Part shown: piece after piece, positions 62 through 23,470 of the stretch
How positions within the stretch are numbered: the first letter of the stretch is position 1
How the letters are laid out: each line of letters starts with the position of its first letter
NCBI GenBank assembly: GCA_037903355.1
Contig: JBAJFE010000011.1
Coordinates: 2,737,001 to 2,801,000, forward strand
DNA: 64,000 nucleotides
Source of the DNA: Trichuris trichiura
Taxonomy: Eukaryota; Nematoda; Enoplea; Trichinellida; Trichuridae
Direction of reading: 5' to 3'
Made by a program: the position numbers and the translations under genes
The notes under the pieces: model-generated
Told to the model about the DNA's origin: nothing
The model's database searches: none
Seen by the model: the letters and a program-made list of their open reading frames with translations, nothing else

Positions 62-10481
<10,420 letters not shown>

Positions 10482-10895
10482 CTTGTTGAGAGACGGCTGA
10501 CTTTACCGCGTGTTATTCAGTGCCTCTTTATTTCGTAAGTCCAACTTGGTAGACGTTCGGTAAGGCGCGGAAGACTCGTTGATTTTTTTCTTCGGTCTTC
10601 ATCTTGCTTGTTCCTTGTCAGTCTGCGTTTGGCATTTTAGCTTGCGCTGGGCTGAGTTTTTTCCTGTGATAACCTTTTTTGCTTGCTTGCTTTTTTATTC
10701 TCTCTCTCTTTTCTCTCTTTCTCTGTCTCCGTTTGGCGCTCATTTTTATCCTTCAAAAAGCACATTCCGCCTTTGGTGTCGGATATGCCTGTTGTTTTTC
10801 ACCAGCGCTGTAAAATGAAAATGGAAAGTTGGTCAAAACGAAGTTTATTTTTTTAGGAGTAAAAAGCGTTCCTCAACTACCCAAGCGTTCTCCTG
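10482..10895. other. Convergent intergenic region, capicua and dehydratase copy 1
   Basis: No gene is seen. It holds the 3' ends of two convergent genes. A TTTATT at 10844-10849 reads AATAAA on the minus strand and is a good poly(A) signal for dehydratase copy 1. A pyrimidine-rich TCTCTC tract lies near 10698-10732. The duplicated segment begins at about 10738. Confidence 0.6.
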
Positions 10896-12212
10896 TTATT
10901 TGCATTTTGTAGAGAGATATTGTTGGAGTAAGCTTTGCAGACGTTCAATGCTAGCCTCCGGGCTGGAGCGTCTCTTGAAAGCGAGCTGCGGATGGAGGCC
11001 GATCAGAAAGGAATGGTCGTCCACAAATTCGGTGCCCGGAGTGTTGCCGTTGCGCAGGAACTGGAAATGCTCAGCGGCCGGCTGCTTTTTCAGATCGCCA
11101 ACGACTACAGGACGCGTCTCAACGCCTTTACTTTCCAAGAAGTCGACCAGATGTTGCTTAGTGAACTTTGATTCGCGACTGACCGTTATGGGAAGAAACA
11201 TCCAACACGGTTGGGCCTTCGGGTGCCATTTCGGCAGGCTCAGTTCGGGAACGACGCTTAGGAACGATTCCATACGGCGGAACTTGTCGTTTCGGCTGGC
11301 GGCGAATTCATTCTGACGTCCAAGCTGTATCTGGCCAAAAGCGCCTTGCAGTTCGGTTGGTCTTACATTGAAGCCCCAATTGACGAATTGGAAACGTGTG
11401 TCTCTTCCGTATAGCGTTGGCACTTTGCTTTGCATTTCTCGGCTCCAACCATGAGCTCGCAGAATGCGTAGATAGTCAGCTGTTTGATCGTCATTTGTCA
11501 CAACCATGCCTCCTTCCATAGTAACCAAGTGGTGAGAGAAAAAGAAGGAAAAAGCGCCCATCAAACCAAAGGTACCTACATGTTTGCCGTCGTAGCGAGT
11601 GCATAGCGACTCGCAGCAGTCTTCGAGCAGTACGAGTTGGTATTTTTTGCAAAGTGCCATAATGGAGTCCATGTCGCACGGGTTTCCCAAAAGATGGACA
11701 AGGAACAGGGCTTTGGTCTTAGGGCTGATTGCTTGTTCAATTATTTCGGCAGTTGTATTCAGCGTTGACGGATCGACGTCGACTGTTTTGACGATCAGAC
11801 CAGCCATAACGGCTGACCATATCTGTGTGGGCCACGTAAGCGCTGGTATTAGTATCTCGTCGCCTCGTTTCAATTTTTCGCCTCCGGGAGTGACGCAGGC
11901 AAAACAGGCGAGCAGATCCGCTGACGATCCACTGTTGACCATTACTGCATGCTTAGCGCCAACAAATGAAGCGAAACGGTTTTCAAAGTCTTTAACTTTT
12001 CTACCCATTGTAGTTTCCATCCGAAGAAGAGAGTCGAGCACATTGATTACTTCATCGCTTCCGTATGTTGGTATGCTCATGGGATACCAATATCTGCTTT
12101 CTTTGACGTTCAATGTCTGCTGTTGACTGAGAGAATCTTCTATTATGCTTGACAAGAATTGCCGCTGTTCCGTGTCACAAAATCCGGGAAAATGAGCTTT
12201 GTGATTTTCCAT
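10896..12212 (-). CDS. ColD/E1-like nucleotide-sugar 3-dehydratase, DegT/DnrJ/EryC1 family (copy 1)
   Basis: A 438-aa fold-type I PLP/PMP enzyme of the DegT/DnrJ/EryC1/StrS family. The phosphate-site NSGSSADL (residues 93-100) and the cofactor aspartate in LLEDCCES (D198) are present. The usual Schiff-base lysine in the S-x4-K-x5-EGG motif is replaced by His227 ([14 protein letters not shown]). That swap defines the PMP-dependent 3-dehydratases ColD (GDP-4-keto-6-deoxymannose) and E1/RfbH (CDP-sugar). The cysteine cluster that binds [2Fe-2S] in E1 is absent, which favours a ColD-like reaction. The frame is open further upstream (to 12371), but that extension is frame-broken in copy 2, so the ATG at 12212 is preferred. 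No intron is seen in the CDS. Such enzymes are mainly bacterial O-antigen genes, so horizontal acquisition is likely. The exact substrate is unproven. Confidence 0.88.
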
Positions 12213-13191
12213 TTGTAGTCCAGTATTGAGTTGGCAACGAGATATTTCCTGTTGACGTCCTGCCAGCCGGAGTGTAACTTCGCAAAAGCAACAAAAAAAT
12301 GAAGTCTCCTGAAGTCGTTTCCCGTTGGGCGACGCGTCTTTCGCCGCTTTTAACAGAAGTGATTGTGGCAACGCGTTGTCGCAAAGTGTAACTTTTGTGT
12401 CCGGTGACTGTGATAGCGGTTGGGCGGCTGGCAGCGAGTAAGCGTTATCCGTTTATTCGTAAATCAGAAAAGAGCGAATGCTAACGTGCGTAATTAGGCA
12501 TCGTTAGCGTAGTACCGTTTATTTATTTGGAGAAAGAAAACTAGCTGCTGCTACATGCGCACACAGCGACAAGAGATTAGCAGGTTTAAATCTAAGATTT
12601 TAAAGTTCGCGGCTACTGTAGTGGCCTTTTATGATTTTCAAGACAGCAGTAACCTTCGAATGGAGATATTGTCGATTGCGCTGGTTTTCGTGCGAATGGT
12701 TTTGGTAAACAGCGACATCTGCGCAGTGCCATCTTTTTCATCTACTTACTAACGTCATTATCGTTGGCCTAATCTTGACAACATGCTGTCGCTGTTGACC
12801 CTATGCATACCGGCTGGCCCATCAACCTGGCTGTATTGGGTAGGAAAGTTTCGTTCGCTGTGTGCTTTCAACTAAGTGAGTATTAGCCAAGGACGGTAAT
12901 TGTTCATTTGCATTTTACCTCCGTTCGAACACATAGACTTGTAAGCGGTTTTGTTTGTCTCAGGCGACGCACAAATGTTTTTCCAGTGGTCGATCGTTCT
13001 TCTCGACCGATCACTGTAATTCTAATTGTTCAATGCGTTTCCACTTCAAACTGCAATCAATGCATCTCTTCTTGTTTATTCAGCTGTTCTCTTTCAATTT
13101 GTTTTGGCTGTCCACCGAGGCCAACGGTCGAACTATGTCGACCGCTGACCTTTGACATTCAGGTGGCAATATCATTTAGTATTGTTAATGT
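12213..13191. other. 5' flank of dehydratase copy 1
   Basis: No independent gene is seen. It should contain the promoter and 5' UTR of the minus-strand dehydratase. About 256 bases at 12393-12648 are specific to this copy and start only about 180 bases upstream of the start codon. The remainder matches the flank of copy 2 with scattered substitutions. Confidence 0.55.
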
Positions 13192-13196
13192 TCTGA

Positions 13197-13616
13197 ATAA
13201 AATGTTTGCGGCTTTGCTACCCGTTCGTTAGTTAAAAACGTTTACTTCTCAAACGTATAACCCGCGAAGCTTTCGGGTCACACCGGGGCCCGTCATCAGC
13301 GCTAAGTGCGCCGCCGTCGGGTCGGTCATTATGTTAGCAAGTCGCCGCCGTCGTGGAAGGTCGGTTGGGTGCTCGCTGCAAAGTCTGACTGACTAGGTGG
13401 GACCAAAGCCCGACGGGTCAAGGATCGACCTGACGGCTGAGGTTCCCGCCACAGTCGGTCGGACGGAGCGGCTTGCTAACATAATGACCTACCCGACGGC
13501 GGCGCACTTAGCGCTGATGACGGGCCCCGGGGTGGTCCGAAAGCTTCGCGGGTTATACGTTTGAGAAGTAAACGTTTTTAACTAACGAACGGGTAGCAAA
13601 GCCGCAAACATTTTAT
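13197..13616. mobile_element. 420-bp terminal-inverted-repeat element (MITE/foldback type)
   Basis: The two ends are inverted copies of each other for roughly 150 bases each: the left arm begins ATAAAATGTTTGCGGC and the right arm ends GCCGCAAACATTTTAT, with a few mismatches further in. The unpaired middle is about 120 bases and has no ORF, so the element is non-autonomous. A possible 5-bp target duplication TCTGA flanks it (13192-13196 and 13617-13621). It lies exactly where copy 1 homology stops and shortly before copy 2 homology starts. Confidence 0.85.
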
Positions 13617-13686
13617 TCTGAATAACGCACCCGTTAGAAAGGAGGAGAAAAAGAAAAGAGAAAAAGAAGAATTAATTTTAATGTTC

Positions 13687-15894
13687 TGCTCATTTTTATT
13701 CTTCAAAAAGCACATTCCGCCTTTGGAGTCGGATATGCATGTTGTTTCTCATTAGCGCTGTAAAGTGAAAATGGAAAGTTGGTCAAAGCGAAGTTTATTT
13801 TTTTTAGGAGCAAAAAGCGTTCATCAACTACTCAAGCGTTCTCCTGTTATTCGCATTTTGTAGAGAGATATTGTTGGAGTAGGCTTTGCAGACATTCAAT
13901 GCTAGCCTCCGAGCTGGAGTGTCTCTTGAAAGCGAGCTGCGGATGGAGGCCGATCAGAAAGGAATGGTCGTCCACAAATTCGGTGCCCGGAGTGTTGCCG
14001 TTGCGCAGGAACTGGAAATGCTCGGCGGCCGGCTGCTTTTTGAGATCGCCAACGACTACAGGACGCGTCTCAACGCCTTTACTTTCCAAGAAGTCGACCA
14101 GATGTTGCTTGGTGAACTTTGATTCGCGACTGACCGTTATGGGAAGAAACATCCAACACGGTTGGGCCTTTGGGTGCCATTTCGGCAGGCTCAGTTCGGG
14201 AACGACGCTTAGGAACGATTCCATACGGCGGAACTTGTCGTTTCGGCTGGCGGCGAATTCATTTTGACGTCCAAGCTGTATCTGGCCAAAAGCGCCTTGC
14301 AGTTCGGTTGGTCTTACATTGAAGCCCCAATTGACGAATTGAAAACGCGTGTCTCTTCCGTATGGCGTTGGCACTTTGCTTTGCATTTCTCGGCTCCAAC
14401 CATGAGCTCGCAGAATGCGTAGATAGTCGGCTGTTTTATCGTCATTTGTCACCACCATACCTCCTTCCATAGTAACCAAGTGGTGAGAGAAAAAGAAGGA
14501 AAAGGCGCCCATCAAACCAAAGGTACCTACATGTTTGCCGTCGTAGCGAGTGCATAGCGACTCGCAGCAGTCTTCGAGCAGTACGAGTTGGTATTTTTTG
14601 CAAAGTGCCATAATGGAGTCCATGTCGCACGGATTTCCCAAAAGATGGACAAGGAACAGGGCTTTGGTCTTAGGGCTGATTGCTTGTTCAATTAGTTCGG
14701 CAGTTGTATTCAGCGTTGACGGATCGACGTCGACAGTTTTGACAGTCAGACCAGCCATAACGGCTGACCATATCTGTGTGGGCCACGTAAGCGCTGGTAT
14801 TAGTATCTCGTCGCCTCGTTTCAATTTTTCGCCTCCGGGAGTGACGCAGGCAAAACAGGCGAGCAGATCCGCTGACGATCCACTGTTGACCATTACTGCA
14901 TGCTTGGCGCCAACAAATGAAGCGAAACGGTTTTCAAAGTCTTTAACTTTTCTACCCATTGTAGTTTCCATCCGAAGAAGAGAGTCGAGCACATTGATTA
15001 CTTCATCGCTTCCGTATGTTGGTATGCTCATGGGATACCAATATCTGCTTTCTTTGACGTTCAATGTCTGCTGTTGACTGAGAGAATCTTCTATTATGCT
15101 TGACAAGAATTGTCGCTGTTCCGTGTCACAAAATCCGGGAAAATGAGCTTTGTGATTTTCCATTTGTAGTCCAGTATTGAGTTGGCAACGAGATTTTTCC
15201 TGTTGACGTCCTGCCAGCCGGAGTGTAACTTCGCAAAAGCAACAAATAAAATGAAGTCTCCCGAAGTCGTTTCCCGTTGGCTGACGCGTTTTTCGCCTCT
15301 TTTAGCACGAGTGATCCTGGCAATGCTTTGTCGCAAAGAGTAACCTTCGAATGGAGATACTGTCGATTGCGCTGGTTGTTTTCGTACGAATGGTTTTGGT
15401 AAACAGCGACATCTGCGCAGTTCCATCTTTCTCATCCACTTAATAACGTCATTATCGTTGGCCTAATCTTGACAACATGCTGTCGCTGTTGACCCTATGC
15501 ATACCGGCTGACCCAACAACCGGGCTGTATTGGGTAGGAAAGTTTCGTTTCTTTATGTGCTTTCAATTAAGAGAGTGACAGCTAAGGGCGCTAATTGTTC
15601 ATTTGCATTTTACCTCCGTTCGAACGCATAGACTTGTAGACGGTTTTGTTTGTCTCAGGCGGTGCACAAATATTTTGTCAATGGTCGATCGTTCTTCTCG
15701 ACCGATAACTGTAGTTCTAATTGTTGAATACATTTCCAGTTCAAACTGCAATCAATGCATCTCTTCTTGTTTATTCAGCTGTTCTCTTTCAATTTGCACT
15801 GGCTATCCAGCGAGGCCAAAGGTCGAACTATGGCGACTGCTGACCTTTGACACTCGGGTGGGCGATATCATTTAGCATTGTTAATGTTCTGAGG
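13687..15894. repeat. Tandem duplication unit, copy 2
   Basis: The second direct copy of the dehydratase-containing unit. It begins with the CATTTTTATTCTTCAAAAAGC block and ends at TTGTTAATGTTCTGA, after which the sequence diverges. The coding part is far better conserved than the flanks. It lacks the 256-base segment of copy 1, with the junction near 15341 at a short shared GTAAC/TAAC sequence. Confidence 0.85.
13847..15163 (-). CDS. ColD/E1-like nucleotide-sugar 3-dehydratase, DegT/DnrJ/EryC1 family (copy 2)
   Basis: A 438-aa paralogue of the gene at 10896-12212. It differs at eight residues by my reading (I140T, I157L, Q243K, L to P in the VPTxYG segment, and four changes within the last ~25 residues). 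All expected active-site features are kept: NSGSSADL, the DCCES aspartate, and the His227-His228 pair in place of the PLP lysine. No stops, frameshifts or introns are seen, so both copies look functional. Upstream of this ATG the reading frame differs from copy 1 because of small indels, which supports the start used for both. A minus-strand AATAAA (13794-13799) provides a poly(A) signal. Substrate and sugar product are inferred only. Confidence 0.88.
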
Positions 15895-17019: not shown

Positions 17020-20000
17020 CTAATATGACAGTCGTCGTGGCGGACGCCTATTTCTAGAAGAACGACGAACAACTGTCGGCGTTTGTCTACCAAGTGCGTG
17101 GTTTGGATGGTCTTTGTGCGGGATGCGTTCCTCTGGGGTCGCATCCTTAGCGGTTGGAGGTAGTAAATCAAACGTGTCGAAGAGGGGGAGATCCGAATCC
17201 GCTTCGGTATTCCGTGCGACCGCGAGCCGTGACCGAATCTGATTTGCGTGTCTTCTCCACACTAGTCCGTTGACGCATACGTCATATAAGCAGTTTCCAT
17301 GACGGCGAAGGACTTGTGCAGGTGTCCAACATGGTTTCGTAATCGACCGTCTGTAGTCGCGAACTATAACGGCTTCACCTGGGAAGAACTCGCGTTTCTT
17401 GGCTCCGTGGTGCCTGTTAAACTGTTCCTGCATAGCGCGATCGCGCTCAGAGCCAACAGGTTGACGACTTGGGCGAAGTAAGCTCAACGACGTCCTGAGT
17501 GGTCGACCGAACAAGGCTTCCGCTGGGGAAACGTTGTTGATAGTCGGATTTGGTGTGGAACGATACGCAAGAAGAAACGTTTGCAGGTCTTCTATGGTTT
17601 CGTTTCTCCCTTTCATTTTGTGAAGTGCGCGTTTGAACGTATCTACGAAACGTTCAACTTGGCCATTGGATTGTGGGTGGAACGGCGGAGACTTTAAGTG
17701 TTGAATTCCATTTGCGTCACACATCTCTTGGAATTCTGCAGAGCTAAACTGTGTGCCGTTATCAGTGACAATGACTTCTGGTATGCCGAAGCGAGAAAAT
17801 ACTTCTTTGAGTAATCTCACCGTAACTCTAGCTGTTGTCTGGTCCGTCATTAATATTTCAGGCCATTTTGAATAAGAATCAACAATCACTAAGAAATGGT
17901 GACCAAGAAAGGGTCCAGCATAATCAATGTGGACTCGTGCCCACGGGCGTGGAGCTTTGGGCCAGGGACAAAGCTCAGTTTTGATCGGCGACTTTGCTGC
18001 TTCGGCACAGCGTTGGCAGCTGCGGACGACGTTTTCGATGTCTAAGTCAATTTTTGGCCAGTATGCGTGGCTGCGAGCTATTGCTTTCATGCGTGAAACT
18101 CCTGGATGTCCCTCATGCAGTTGCCGCAGCACCTGCCGTTGGAGTGTTGACGGAATAACAACACGTTCCCCATACATGAGGCAATCATCGACCAAGGAAA
18201 GAGAACTTTTCCGATCGAAGAATTTTCTAAGTTCTGGACTGCAACAATGTCGAGGCCAGTTGCTTCTAAGGGACTTGATAACGCGTTGTAAAAGCCAATC
18301 TTTGGCAGTTTCCTCAGCAATTAATCGTGCTGTCACTGGTAATGCACGAATTGACTCTCTCAGAACTTGTTGTACTTCAGCTTCGATCACTGGAATGCCA
18401 ACTTCTTCGTCTTTTGGTTGTGGCGCAATGAGCCTAGATAAGGCGTCTGCCTGTCCAAAAGAAGAGGTACGGCGATACTGCACTGTGAAATTGTAGGCAA
18501 GGGCCATCGTTGCCCATCGTTGAAGACGGCTTGCAGTGTACACAGGGACCCCACTTTTTGATCCAAAAATTGCGAGTAGCGGTTTGTGATCAGTAAGAAG
18601 CGTAAATCTGCGTCCGTGGATCATCTTGTGAAATTTCCGCAGAGCAAAAATCAAGGCCAGCGCTTCTTTCTCAATTTGACTGTAGTGTGTTTCTGCTGAG
18701 GTGAGTGTACGAGAAGCATGCGAGATAGCTTTCTCTGATCCGTCAGCGTAACGGTGTGATATAACTGCCCCAAGGCCGTTATTAGAAGCATCCGCTGCAA
18801 CAATGATCTCCTGGCGAGGGTCATAATGAGCCAAGAGTAAGTCGGAGGTGATGATGGAGATGACTTGGTCAAACGCTTGTTGACATCGAGGTGTCCATTC
18901 AAATCTGGCGTCTTTGCGAAGGAGTCGGTCAAGAGGTGCTCTGACATCGCACAGGTTCCGGATGAATTGGCCGTAATGGTTGACCATCCCGAGGAACGAG
19001 CGAAGTTGTGAAACATTTGTAGGAACTGGCATACGAGTAATAGCTGCCGTTCTGTTTGGGTCCGGACGGCGACCGTTCTTGTTGATTATGCAGCCGAGAT
19101 AATTGACTTCGGGCATAGCAAACTGACATTTGCTCAGCCGAATGTGAAATCCCCATTCCGCAATTCTTTGGAGAAGGGCGTCCAGGTTCCGTTTATGGGC
19201 TTCTTCTGTTTTTCCGACCACAATAACGTCGTCCAAGTATGCGACTACTCCATGTAGACCAGCGATCAAGGTATCCATAATTTGTTGAAATATACCTGGT
19301 GCTGACTTTACGCCAAAAGGAAGGCGGTTGTAACGGTACAAACCGCGGTGCGTATTAAGTGTCAAGAGTTCTCTTGACTCTTCACTTACTTCGATCTGGA
19401 GATAGGCATCAGAGAAGTCAATTTGGGAGAATACTGTTCCACCGTTGAGAGTTGAGAAAATGTCCTCAGGTGTCGGCAAGGGATACTGATGCATTTCGAG
19501 AGCATCATTCAATCCTGTAGAGAAATCTGCGCAGAGCCGCAGGCGACCGTCGCGCTTCCTTACTGCCACTAAAGGTGCAGCCCAAGCGGAGTAGTTAACC
19601 TTTGAGATTACACCTGACTTTTCAAGACGATCAAGCTCCGCTTCTACTAGTGGTACGACAGCGTATGGTACCGGTCGCTTTGGGCGGAACACTGGTTGCG
19701 CGTCTGGCCGTAGGCGTAGGGATGCCTTGGCGAACTTACAGTGTCCTAGGCTGTCACTACAAATTTCAGGATAGCGGCGGTAGACGTATTCACGAGCGTT
19801 TGACGCACTTAAGGCATGTATCTCAGGACTGCAGATCAGTGCCCGTTCATCCTCCGGCTGTAAGTCAGACTGTAGGCTGTTCAGCGGTTGGTCGTACAGA
19901 CCAAGTTTGAAGATCCATTCTGCTCCGAGTAGGTTATTTGAGCTAATGTCTGACACGTAGCACGTTCCTGAGACGCTGTGAGTGCCGAAAGAATATGCAC

Positions 20001-21258
20001 ATCTAAAGCTACCTCGTAGTGGAATAGTGTCACCATTGTATGTCGTAGCTCTGACTGAAGAAGTGTCGCTAAGTGGCGGTGAGCCAAGTTGCTTCCAGGT
20101 CTGCACAGAGATGATCGTCAGATCAGAACCGGTGTCAATCTGGAAGGTGACTGCCTTCTTGTCTATGTTCACTGAGATATGACGCCTGTAGACATTAGAA
20201 CTGACCGAAGACAATTCATACGTGGAACTGACTCTTGGCGTTGTTTTTGCGCCTCTGTGTTGAAATTTCTTTCGCAAACTTACTTTCCTCTTAGGAGAGG
20301 GTAAGGTTTTAGCAGGTGGACAGAAACCTTCTTTGTGCCCCACGTCTCCACATCTGGTACAGACATGCGACTTATAAGGGCAGAAGCGAGTGTAGTGCCA
20401 TGCTCCACAGAGCCAGCAAGGCGTCTTGGGCTTACGAGCAGGCTGTTTGTCTGGTGAGCGATCGCACTGAGTGAAAGAGCTTCGAGAGTTCCGTTTTGCT
20501 GCCACTTTGTCAACTTCCAGAGGGTTACTTCCAGCAGACTGTTGAACCATTTCTGTATCATACTTAAGGTTGCGAAGGTGATTACATTCGTCCACGAGTT
20601 TGGCTATCGTGACATTTGGCTCCGTCTCGATTTTGTTTAGAAGCTTCAGTCGAACAGCTGCGTCATTCGGAGACTGAAGACCGCATACAAAAATGAGACA
20701 TTTAAAATTGTCCTCACTGAGCGTGCCCAATTGGAAGCGCTGACATTCGCGATTCACGATTCCGCCATATGTGATGTAGTCATCATGCGCGTTCTTTGTT
20801 AAATTCAAGCATCGATAGCGTGCGTTGAAGAGTGAACGCTGCTGTCCGAACATCTGCGTGAGAATGTTAACTGTCTCGTCAAAGCGAACATCACGAGGGT
20901 GACGCGGCAGAATGTAGTCAGCGTACTTCTTGTGTACGTTTGTCCGTAACTTGCGTAGCAGCAACCGAACGCGTGCTGCATCATCGAGCTCAGCGGCTTC
21001 AATGTTGAAGAAGTCTTCGTAGCGTGAAAACCAGGCTTCGAAAGTGTCCTCTGTGCTAGGGTCGTAATCAAATTCTGAGATGCTTGCTGCCAGCGTGTCC
21101 AGAGTAGGATGCGAACGAACCATGTTTTCGGTGGACGCTTGAGACAGACTGAGCCGTTGTAAAGTTTCGGCGAACTGTTCCTGAAGCTGGGCAACCTGTT
21201 GCAGGGTTTGCTGCTGTGTAGCGAGGATCGACTGCAGGTCCGCTTTCGAGTGTGCCAT
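17020..21258 (-). CDS. Gag-Pol polyprotein of the Ty3/gypsy element
   Basis: One uninterrupted frame of 1412 aa from the first ATG (21258). It is open 10 codons further, but without an ATG. In order: an N-terminal gag region with a glutamine-rich coiled segment; two CCHC knuckles near residue 290-325 (the first, CWLCGAWHYTRFC, has one residue fewer than the canonical spacing; the second, CTRCGDVGHKEGFC, is canonical); an aspartic protease (FQIDTGSDLTIIS); reverse transcriptase with the YLDD box; RNase H with the LTDHKPLLAIFG segment; an integrase with an HHCC zinc finger and the catalytic core (VIVTDNGTQF); and a C-terminal tail. There is no gag/pol frameshift, so both are made as one polypeptide. 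No env-like ORF is present. No disabling mutation is seen. Confidence 0.95.
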   Translation of the reverse strand: MAHSKADLQSILATQQQTLQQVAQLQEQFAETLQRLSLSQASTENMVRSHPTLDTLAASISEFDYDPSTEDTFEAWFSRYEDFFNIEAAELDDAARVRLLLRKLRTNVHKKYADYILPRHPRDVRFDETVNILTQMFGQQRSLFNARYRCLNLTKNAHDDYITYGGIVNRECQRFQLGTLSEDNFKCLIFVCGLQSPNDAAVRLKLLNKIETEPNVTIAKLVDECNHLRNLKYDTEMVQQSAGSNPLEVDKVAAKRNSRSSFTQCDRSPDKQPARKPKTPCWLCGAWHYTRFCPYKSHVCTRCGDVGHKEGFCPPAKTLPSPKRKVSLRKKFQHRGAKTTPRVSSTYELSSVSSNVYRRHISVNIDKKAVTFQIDTGSDLTIISVQTWKQLGSPPLSDTSSVRATTYNGDTIPLRGSFRCAYSFGTHSVSGTCYVSDISSNNLLGAEWIFKLGLYDQPLNSLQSDLQPEDERALICSPEIHALSASNAREYVYRRYPEICSDSLGHCKFAKASLRLRPDAQPVFRPKRPVPYAVVPLVEAELDRLEKSGVISKVNYSAWAAPLVAVRKRDGRLRLCADFSTGLNDALEMHQYPLPTPEDIFSTLNGGTVFSQIDFSDAYLQIEVSEESRELLTLNTHRGLYRYNRLPFGVKSAPGIFQQIMDTLIAGLHGVVAYLDDVIVVGKTEEAHKRNLDALLQRIAEWGFHIRLSKCQFAMPEVNYLGCIINKNGRRPDPNRTAAITRMPVPTNVSQLRSFLGMVNHYGQFIRNLCDVRAPLDRLLRKDARFEWTPRCQQAFDQVISIITSDLLLAHYDPRQEIIVAADASNNGLGAVISHRYADGSEKAISHASRTLTSAETHYSQIEKEALALIFALRKFHKMIHGRRFTLLTDHKPLLAIFGSKSGVPVYTASRLQRWATMALAYNFTVQYRRTSSFGQADALSRLIAPQPKDEEVGIPVIEAEVQQVLRESIRALPVTARLIAEETAKDWLLQRVIKSLRSNWPRHCCSPELRKFFDRKSSLSLVDDCLMYGERVVIPSTLQRQVLRQLHEGHPGVSRMKAIARSHAYWPKIDLDIENVVRSCQRCAEAAKSPIKTELCPWPKAPRPWARVHIDYAGPFLGHHFLVIVDSYSKWPEILMTDQTTARVTVRLLKEVFSRFGIPEVIVTDNGTQFSSAEFQEMCDANGIQHLKSPPFHPQSNGQVERFVDTFKRALHKMKGRNETIEDLQTFLLAYRSTPNPTINNVSPAEALFGRPLRTSLSLLRPSRQPVGSERDRAMQEQFNRHHGAKKREFFPGEAVIVRDYRRSITKPCWTPAQVLRRHGNCLYDVCVNGLVWRRHANQIRSRLAVARNTEADSDLPLFDTFDLLPPTAKDATPEERIPHKDHPNHALGRQTPTVVRRSSRNRRPPRRLSY

Positions 21259-21290
21259 GTTGTGAGAGTTCTGTAACCTCGTCGCCAAAT

Positions 21291-21488
21291 TGTTGTAACT
21301 TGGGCGCGCGTGAGAAAGTCAGCCAACGTGAAGAACGTTTACTCGTGAACGCAAGTCAGAGAGAGCGACAAAACGACCTACTTCTCGAGCTACTGACAAT
21401 GACACTCCCAACACCGTGTCGTCCTGATTCGCAGGAGACCCAACGTGCGTGATAAGGAAGAGTAGTTTAAGTGCTGCTATATACAACA
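21291..21488 (-). repeat. 5' LTR of the Ty3/gypsy element
   Basis: 198 bp matching the opposite LTR base for base by eye. It should contain the element's promoter, reading leftward. It is directly flanked by the duplicated GTTAC at 21489-21493. Confidence 0.95.
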
Positions 21489-22503: not shown

Positions 22504-23470
22504 ATGGCGTTCTACGATGCTACAATGGACACTGGCGAACAACAGGTGTTTCCAGCCAGCGAACTACTGAATATCAAACTTTTCGGCAAGTGGCCTTTAG
22601 ACACGGTAGACATAAATGACATTAGCCTCAACGTAAGTATTCCAGCAGTTTATTCTCCTAGGCAGTTGGGTAGCGTGTTAAAATGTAATCGTGCGTACAT
22701 CCTTTTTTTTACAAACTGTGAAACTGAAAAACAGTTGCGCGCTCGGCCAAAAACCTTTTATCTTTCAGGATTACATTGCCGTGAAAGAAAAGCATGCGAA
22801 GTACTTGCCTCATTCGGCAGGCAGATATCAGACGAAGCGTTTCCGGAAAGCGCAGTGTCCCATAGTGGAACGTTTAGTCTGCTCGCTAATGATGCACGGA
22901 CGAAATAACGGTAAAAAGCTGCTGGCAATGCGCATTGTTCGTCACGCTTTCGAAATTATTCATCTGCATACAGGCGAGGTAAGATCACATTTCCCGTATA
23001 CGTGCATAGTTTTGGTTAGCTAGTTTTTCTTCGCCTTTTGTGGCTATACGTAAGGCTTTGCAAACGCTTTTACCTTCCGTCAAAGCTCTGGCAAAGAAAT
23101 GCGCGCATTTTAGAACCCCGTGCAAGTTTTGGTCAACGCAATCATTAATAGTGGTCCCCGGGAAGACTCGACGCGCATAGGGAGAGCTGGTACGGTGCGT
23201 CGGCAGGCAGTCGATGTGAGTCCTTTACGTCGAGTCAACCAGGCTATATGGCTTTTGTGTACCGGCGCTCGGGAATCTGCATTCCGTAATATTAAGACAA
23301 TCGCAGAATGCCTGGCTGATGAACTGATCAACGCTGCAAAGGTTGGGTCGGCTTTCTACCTCCATTGCTCTCTAACTGACGCGTGCATTTTTGTTTTCAA
23401 GGGCTCCAGCAATTCCTATGCCATCAAAAAGAAAGACGAGCTAGAACGTGTCGCCAAGTCGAATCGTTAA
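22504..23470 (+). CDS. rps5: 40S ribosomal protein S5 (uS7)
   Basis: A small-subunit ribosomal protein of the head domain near the mRNA exit and E site. Four exons: 22504-22632, 22769-22978, 23114-23341, 23402-23470, giving 211 aa, with all junctions GT-AG and phase 0. The sequence is nearly invariant against animal S5: [73 protein letters not shown], ending ERVAKSNR. The N-terminus is a few residues longer than in mammals. The start is the only ATG that fits before the conserved block. An AATAAA poly(A) signal lies at about 23512. Confidence 0.98.

Follow-up and report, generated by a model that had tools for sequence, protein, structure and literature searches.

Tandem ColD-type sugar 3-dehydratase genes in the human whipworm and a predicted GDP-linked route to tyvelose

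The window, a 64,000-nucleotide stretch of a 2.87-Mb contig of Trichuris trichiura, carries two closely related genes on the minus strand. Copy A (10896..12212) is intronless, has 438 codons, and is assigned to the ColD-type (PMP-dependent) sugar 3-dehydratases on its open reading frame (ORF), its Pfam match, His227 and the lack of the E1 cysteine run. Copy B (13847..15163), recognized by its ORF and Pfam match, is a tandem paralogue of copy A with 430 of 438 residues identical. Both ORFs are intact from the ATG and encode 438 residues each. They score 266.6 and 269 bits with the Pfam model DegT_DnrJ_EryC1, far beyond chance with a cut-off of 19.8, which bears out the two intact genes of this family described in a sequence-only reading of the same DNA. 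No further DegT match turned up when the entire 72.7-Mb genome was searched with Pfam. On the minus strand, each gene is followed by a possible poly(A) signal: the first AATAAA lies 47 nt past the stop of copy A (10844..10849) and 48 nt past that of copy B (13794..13799). A second AATAAA is found 197 nt downstream of the copy A stop, and further ones 147 and 230 nt downstream of the copy B stop.

Each gene lies with its flanks in one of two tandem duplication units (10738..13153 and 13688..15848), delineated by repeat families D1-D5 and blastn. The main alignment between the units shows 97% identity, and their flank pieces show 85-95% (blastn). Between them is a palindromic repeat (13191..13622) with 155-nt arms that are 96% complementary; this dispersed genomic repeat has 143 matches genome-wide and is no part of the enzyme. 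The two copies differ at 24 codons and 8 residues, and look to be under selection at the protein level, judging from a pN of 0.009 versus a pS of 0.055 (pN/pS of 0.16). An uncollapsed-haplotype artefact could partly account for the presence of two copies.

The neighbouring genes look animal, in agreement with the sequence-only reading. An HMG-box ORF (7172-7405) and a capicua-like piece (9978-10235) lie near the pair, and a rpS5-like ORF is found at 23114-23467; all were named by eye, and the ORFs around the pair are presumed to be capicua and rpS5. Bacterial contamination or a dead insertion would fit genes that are intronless and whose closest non-worm relatives are bacterial or from metagenomes. 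The probability of such an origin is nevertheless negligible, because the genes sit inside a megabase-scale contig amid animal-like genes, because relatives are present in T. suis (in a 1.14-Mb contig record), T. muris and Trichinella (two kinds) among the matches listed, and because of the pN/pS ratio between the copies.

Both copies contain the motif [14 protein letters not shown], the first His of which is residue 227 counted from Met1. In ColD, the aligned residue is the one altered in the PDB entries H188N and H188K. In the alignment, this column is His in 6/6 worm rows, 5/5 ColD rows, 6/6 E1 rows and 64/64 other relatives, and Lys in 7/7 aminotransferase-type rows; the active-site Lys of sugar aminotransferases (ArnB, PseC, perosamine synthase) was not found at column 227 of the worm rows. 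The replacement of the PLP lysine by His, as initially proposed, is therefore confirmed. GDP-perosamine synthase (PDB 3bn1, 3dr4) shares the fold of the worm protein, but is an aminotransferase that keeps the PLP lysine (K186A in a PDB title) where the worm has His. Its substrate is GDP-4-keto-6-deoxymannose, the same as proposed below for the worm enzyme. In the predicted structure, the catalytic loop (residues 225-230) is poorly resolved, with pLDDT values below 50.

The closest known enzyme is ColD (WbdK), the GDP-4-keto-6-deoxy-D-mannose 3-dehydratase of E. coli (PDB 2gms, 3b8x), which, like the worm protein, has His for Lys and no iron-sulfur cysteine run. ColD is the top PDB sequence match with 251 bits, ahead of E1 with 204 bits, and the best match in a fold search with Foldseek, with E1 next; the identity to the worm protein is about 35% in the Foldseek alignment. 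E1/RfbH, the CDP-4-keto-6-deoxyglucose 3-dehydratase (PDB 3bcx), also shares the His for Lys, the PMP chemistry and the fold, but has four [2Fe-2S] cysteines, a CDP-sugar substrate and the reductase E3. The cysteine run C-x-C-x7-C is present in the E1 rows of the alignment and absent from the worm rows, so that the cysteine cluster reported missing in the sequence-only reading is indeed lacking. At 52 columns that separate the ColD and E1 clades, the worms have the ColD residue at 28, the E1 residue at 10 and another at 14. Relatives bear database names such as 'Lipopolysaccharide biosynthesis protein RfbH' and 'CDP-6-deoxy-D-xylo-4-hexulose-3-dehydrase', which would suit an E1/RfbH-type enzyme of the CDP-glucose pathway, as would the use of E1 in bacterial tyvelose synthesis (PMC8987622, in the portion consulted). 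Against this, the two copies score 286.3 and 285.5 bits with the NCBIfam RfbH equivalog model, under its cut-off of 423.

The protein searches scored the 7998 best candidates and listed 120. For the phylogenetic trees, rows with a best score below 100 bits were left out before the first tree (120 rows). Removal of 9 out-of-frame or long-branch rows and of 23 more that thinned near relatives gave a final tree of 88 rows. In this tree, the six worm proteins form one clade (100/99), which groups with 37 bacterial or metagenome rows (100/100). Worms, this bacterial subfamily and ColD join with a support of only 93/86, whereas E1 and the Lys-type aminotransferases are separate at 100/100. The worm clade is thus in the same broad clade as ColD, but it groups with a distinct bacterial subfamily whose N-terminal part is longer. 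Grouping the worms with E1 was rejected (p-AU 0.0006), which, with the tree itself, further weighs against an E1 identity. This tree, with ColD, E1 and lysine-type aminotransferases, is the one the sequence-only reading had called for, and it places the worms on the ColD side.

Two Trichinella proteins automatically named RfbH are inside the worm clade: P0003, 62-65% identical to the whipworm protein, and P0004, 52-53% identical. A third, P0149, named GDP-4-keto-6-deoxy-D-mannose 3-dehydratase, resembles P0004 by eye and was outside the tree set. Trichinella has two kinds of the protein, whereas the whipworm has one kind in two recent copies. The gene was likely acquired from a bacterium before the split between Trichuris and Trichinella, as far as the protein comparisons indicate. 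The trees, the relatives in both genera and the pN/pS between the copies support the earlier proposal of a gene acquired, retained and duplicated. The 2022 paper by Zarlenga on gene transfer in Trichinella has cyanase as its subject, in the part available.

Bacterial gene neighbourhoods were examined at 80 loci, the best of 244 relatives found: the 31 nearest and 49 others. A gene of the GDP-fucose-synthase family is adjacent in 26/31 of the nearest loci, in 25 of them at a score of at least 280 bits, and one such neighbour that was tested matches GDP-L-fucose synthases with an E-value of 5e-91. GMD (GDP-mannose 4,6-dehydratase) lies within the examined flank in 12/31. In the remaining 49 loci, a fucose-synthase-like neighbour was found in only 7, and GMD within 1.2 kb in 19. 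Neighbours of either type are frequent among relatives of the worm protein, a further likeness to ColD. CDP-pathway genes do flank some of the nearest loci, which speaks for an E1-type function: glucose-1-phosphate cytidylyltransferase in 7/31, and CDP-glucose 4,6-dehydratase (more than 40% identity) in the flank of 3/31 and adjacent in 0/31. E1 itself is present in 6/31, as a separate gene that keeps its cysteines. In the locus with the highest score (L038), CDP genes are present but no fucose-synthase-like gene is adjacent; in L039, CDP genes occur and the examined flank lacks GMD.

The whipworm genome contains a GMD gene (C5:4291691-4294152) and an animal-type GDP-fucose synthase gene (C7:129334-130129). 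The exons of the latter retain the pieces TCIFPD and EGH, which we take to be the sites of the epimerase Cys and His. The best genome matches to the CDP-glucose dehydratase and cytidylyltransferase models, at 35 and 63 bits, are partial and look by eye like other enzymes, which again argues against the CDP pathway. A score under the cut-off is alone no proof that a CDP gene is absent, because the search works exon by exon and even the best exon of GMD, with 99.7 of 415 bits, stays below the whole-protein cut-off. In bacteria, the CDP-tyvelose pathway (RfbF, G, H, I, S and E) ends in the same sugar as in Trichinella but is CDP-linked, and neither its 4,6-dehydratase nor its cytidylyltransferase was recognized in the whipworm genome. 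On balance, an E1/RfbH-type enzyme is very improbable. The sequence-only reading preferred a ColD-like over an E1-like enzyme; the lack of the cysteine run, the AU test, the bacterial gene neighbours and the gene set of the worm all support this.

Several other hits were rejected as pathway enzymes. Two ORFs on C26 (L019, L020) with weak CDP-glucose dehydratase model matches look like steroid-dehydrogenase-type SDRs by eye, a hit on C1 is UDP-xylose-synthase-like, one at C7:4.19 Mb is GALE-like, and the best cytidylyltransferase-model match (C5:421264-421947) resembles GDP-mannose pyrophosphorylase, all by eye. A 354-aa single-exon SDR ORF (G000:C11:1508053-1508763) was weighed as a possible 4-ketoreductase acquired together with the dehydratase, and rejected. 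Among its 28 relatives listed, those named besides T. trichiura are animal (such as Romanomermis, molluscs, a springtail and brine shrimp), and the name Trichinella does not occur. No PDB entry matches it, and just 1/80 bacterial loci gave a match, of 22.5%. A match of 100% over 354 aa for a protein of this assembly confirms the species as T. trichiura.

The likely substrate of the ColD-type enzyme is GDP-4-keto-6-deoxymannose, from which O-3 would be removed, because of the GDP-fucose-synthase neighbours in bacteria, the worm's own GMD and GDP-fucose synthase, and the weak matches to the CDP models. If the worm enzyme follows the published ColD cycle, as given in the accessible text of PMC8987622, PMP would condense with the 4-keto group, His227 would take the proton and the 3-OH would leave; hydrolysis of the enamine and regeneration of PMP by glutamate would complete the cycle. 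The acquired enzyme would draw off the fucose precursor made by the resident GMD and turn it into GDP-4-keto-3,6-dideoxymannose. If C4 were then reduced without epimerization, the product would be GDP-D-tyvelose, which would serve as donor for the tyvelose caps known in Trichinella. It is fairly probable that both copies are enzymes of the ColD kind, likely acquired from bacteria before the two genera split, that act as GDP-4-keto-6-deoxy-D-mannose 3-dehydratases feeding GDP-D-tyvelose, whereas ColD leads to colitose in bacteria.

Tyvelose is 3,6-dideoxy-D-mannose, a rare sugar that caps Trichinella glycans. A ColD paired with an epimerizing partner of the GDP-fucose-synthase type gives L-colitose, not D-tyvelose. 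The bacterial partner gene is of this epimerizing type, which counts against tyvelose as the product. With the same enzyme and substrate, the resident GDP-fucose synthase could reduce with C5 epimerization to GDP-L-colitose (3-deoxy-L-fucose), and whipworm glycans would carry colitose instead. The adjacent bacterial genes and the TCIFPD and EGH pieces of the animal-type synthase fit this outcome, as does the lack, by eye, of an RMD-like 4-ketoreductase without C5 epimerization, or any other reductase that stood out, among the whipworm extended-SDR hits. It is still judged unlikely, since the sugar of Trichinella is tyvelose and the portions of the literature searched contain no mention of colitose for nematodes. 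Another candidate, the ascarylose of other nematodes, is a 3,6-dideoxyhexose with the opposite C2 configuration; it also calls for a gluco-type 4,6-dehydratase, which was not recognized among the genome hits, and was set aside. Action on another GDP-sugar such as a heptose, or some other repurposing with no link to tyvelose, is rather improbable: the worm's own GMD produces the ColD substrate, and we know of no GDP-heptoses, or synthesis of them, in animals. The Campylobacter route to 3,6-dideoxyheptoses is reportedly GDP-linked and ColD-like. Two points favour such repurposing: the connection with tyvelose depends on the distribution of the gene among worms, and a 2023 paper on these heptoses suggests, in the part consulted, C3 deoxygenation of other sugars.

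A GDP route to tyvelose would explain the capping of Trichinella glycans. In Trichinella, tyvelose is a β-linked 3,6-dideoxy-D-arabino-hexose (PMC8784694, PMC3755266, in the sections available), and in T. spiralis the sources, as far as available, tie it to the muscle-stage larva. Beyond the sequence-only reading, the gene is common to Trichinella, a tyvelose maker, and the resident GDP-mannose pathway likely supplies the substrate. More tentatively, with chances a little short of even, one bacterial ColD-like gene may have been plugged in after GMD in the ancestor of whipworms and Trichinella, creating a GDP-tyvelose pathway undescribed in bacteria that makes the cap sugar of Trichinella; that sugar, or a sister of it, may also be present in whipworms. 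The literature searched, seen in part, reports tyvelose for Trichinella, with no report found for Trichuris; this and the tie to the muscle-stage larva weigh against the tyvelose reading. The same literature did not explain the synthesis of tyvelose in any animal or link a ColD-type gene to its synthesis in worms, and did not name GDP-tyvelose.

With a named gene, substrate and cofactor cycle, tyvelose synthesis in an animal becomes directly testable. The tyvelose reading predicts the nucleotide sugar GDP-tyvelose and a 3,6-dideoxyhexose in the human whipworm. If true, it would show clearly that a single acquired gene, retained in two genera and duplicated, can re-route a pathway that the animal already had. 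To our knowledge, the 3-dehydratase has no host counterpart. Antibodies raised against Trichinella are directed predominantly at tyvelose, and both protective and diagnostic antibodies in trichinellosis recognize this sugar (PMC8784694, PMC3755266, in the same sections).

The two 438-aa genes claimed by the sequence-only reading were both found as open frames of 438 codons on the minus strand, copy A at 10896–12212 and copy B at 13847–15163. Between the copies 24 codons differ, with an amino-acid change at 8 of these. With a simple site count, pN is 0.0088 against a pS of 0.055, so that the copies look protein-constrained, both apparently retained as proteins since their split. The first AATAAA after the stop lies 47 nt or 48 nt downstream in the two copies. 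The duplicated units extend over about 10738–13153 and about 13688–15848. They are separated by a palindromic repeat (13191–13622) with 155-nt arms that are 96% complementary. With 40 of 497 candidates scored, this repeat has 143 matches in the genome, counting both strands, which suggests a foldback or MITE-like element with dispersed copies. The window covers positions 2737001–2801000 in a 2.87-Mb contig of a 72.7-Mb assembly comprising 62 contigs, and the ORFs neighbouring the enzyme genes are, by eye, what we take to be capicua and rpS5. Between the enzyme genes and rpS5, the minus strand has a single open frame of 1432 codons (17023–21318) whose start was judged gag-like by eye, with the appearance of a long retroelement ORF. 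The matches listed for the window enzyme include T. suis and T. muris and none from T. trichiura; its gene could be missing from the annotation, or wrongly modelled, in the public protein set of T. trichiura.

Both copies score 267–269 bits with the Pfam model DegT_DnrJ_EryC1. The closest solved structures are those of ColD (GDP-4-keto-6-deoxy-D-mannose 3-dehydratase, 251 bits), then E1 (CDP-4-keto-6-deoxyglucose 3-dehydratase, 204 bits). A structure search with the AlphaFold model (mean pLDDT 82, below 50 at residues 225–230, which form the catalytic loop) also returned ColD at the top and E1 second. Histidine at the PLP-lysine position, noticed in the sequence beforehand, occupies column 227 in 6/6 worm rows, as well as in 5/5 ColD rows, 6/6 E1 rows and 64/64 remaining relatives; the column is Lys in 7/7 aminotransferase rows. 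In PMC8987622, histidine for lysine is given as the mark of 3-dehydratases and iron-sulfur cysteines as that of E1 and SpnQ; ColD is described there as having no such cysteines, its intermediate being hydrolysed and PMP restored from glutamate. The aligned worm proteins lack E1's C-x-C-x7-C run, in line with the earlier claim that its cysteine cluster is missing, and the NCBIfam RfbH model gives the worm enzyme 286 bits, the cut-off being 423. At the 52 columns that discriminate ColD from E1, the worms side with E1 at 10 and with neither at 14.

In protein searches (best 7998 candidates scored, best 120 listed), identity to the window enzyme is 87% in T. suis, 80% in T. muris, 65% in Trichinella and 53% for a second Trichinella kind. 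The next matches listed, bacterial where named, have 44–52% identity, and no other named animal is among the best 120 listed in each search. The tree suggested by the sequence-only reading, built with 88 rows, places the worms beside ColD. All six proteins from worms group in a single clade (100/99), whose sister group is 37 rows that are bacterial where named (99/92; jointly 100/100), and the ColD clade adjoins this assemblage at 93/86, which we regard as moderate support. E1 and the Lys-type enzymes each stand apart (100/100), and a constrained tree holding the worms and E1 together was rejected (lnL 76 lower, p-AU 0.0006). As both Trichinella kinds fall inside the worm clade, the second being basal, a single acquisition followed by duplication fits best. 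The T. spiralis record P0149 (410 aa), in whose model the expected active-site motif is absent and the C-terminus odd, has the appearance of a wrongly predicted model for a gene of the second kind.

Gene neighbourhoods were sampled at loci from species genomes for the best 80 of 244 relatives found, of which 31 (L038–L067 and L070) constitute the nearest subfamily. A GDP-fucose-synthase-family gene is adjacent in 26 of these 31 loci, with at least 280 bits in 25 of them; one representative neighbour matched GDP-L-fucose synthases with an E-value of 5e-91. GDP-mannose 4,6-dehydratase (GMD) is present in the examined flank of 12/31, within 1.2 kb in 5/31. CDP-glucose 4,6-dehydratase (>40% identity) is in the flank of 3/31 and adjacent in 0/31, and glucose-1-phosphate cytidylyltransferase in the flank of 7/31; a looser threshold added weaker, non-adjacent dehydratase matches (28–30% identity) in L044, L051 and L058. 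Since the fucose-synthase-family gene is adjacent whereas the CDP genes are farther off, the immediate partner points to a GDP-linked substrate, genes of both pathways occurring in some clusters. In the remaining 49 loci, a fucose-synthase-like gene is adjacent in 7 and GMD is within 1.2 kb in 19. Six of the nearest loci (L038, L043, L044, L047, L050 and L058) have an E1 gene with its cysteines, separate from the ColD-like gene and next to CDP-glucose dehydratase in two of them; these sugar clusters therefore contain two different 3-dehydratases.

Six-frame searches covering the whole T. trichiura genome found one GMD, with many exons (contig C5:4291691–4294152), and one GDP-fucose synthase (contig C7:129334–130129), as well as UDP-xylose-synthase-like and GALE-like genes. 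The best partial matches to the CDP-glucose 4,6-dehydratase and glucose-1-phosphate cytidylyltransferase models (35 and 63 bits) were attributed on visual inspection to other enzymes. Because the split GMD, when its exons are scored singly, itself falls short of the cut-off set for the whole protein (best 99.7 of 415 bits), a score under the cut-off is not decisive by itself for the CDP models. With GMD present and the CDP-model matches assigned to other enzymes, the visible source of 4-keto-6-deoxyhexose is, judging from the gene content, GDP-linked and of manno configuration. No 4-ketoreductase for a dideoxy intermediate was recognised by eye among the extended-SDR matches in the whipworm genome. 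On contig C11, an intronless ORF (G000:C11:1508053–1508763) encodes a 354-aa SDR; over these 354 aa it matches a T. trichiura record at 100% identity, from which the assembly is assigned to that species. Further relatives of this SDR occur in Romanomermis, molluscs, a springtail and brine shrimp.

The worm enzyme is predicted likely to act on GDP-4-keto-6-deoxy-D-mannose, which with PMP would lose its 3-hydroxyl to give GDP-4-keto-3,6-dideoxy-D-mannose. Reduction at C4 only would then yield 3,6-dideoxy-D-mannose, that is, tyvelose. Tyvelose is defined as beta-3,6-dideoxy-D-arabino-hexose (PMC8784694), Trichinella N-glycans are capped with it (PMC3755266), and its bacterial synthesis is described as using E1 (PMC8987622). 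We infer that the worm gene supplies the tyvelose step, because the genera holding it, Trichuris and Trichinella, include the one known tyvelose-making worm genus. If the resident GDP-fucose synthase took the last step, with C5 inversion, the product would be colitose instead of tyvelose. The counter-evidence weighs more on the tyvelose claim than on the enzyme claim: no report of tyvelose in Trichuris was found in the open-licence literature searched, and the unrecognised reductase, the CDP genes in some nearest clusters, the 10/52 E1-type columns and the moderate ColD join also lower it. The same literature yielded neither a tie between such a gene and tyvelose in worms nor the term 'GDP-tyvelose'. 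In databases, automatic names are already attached to the Trichinella proteins, so that the gene is on record, though its meaning seems not to be.
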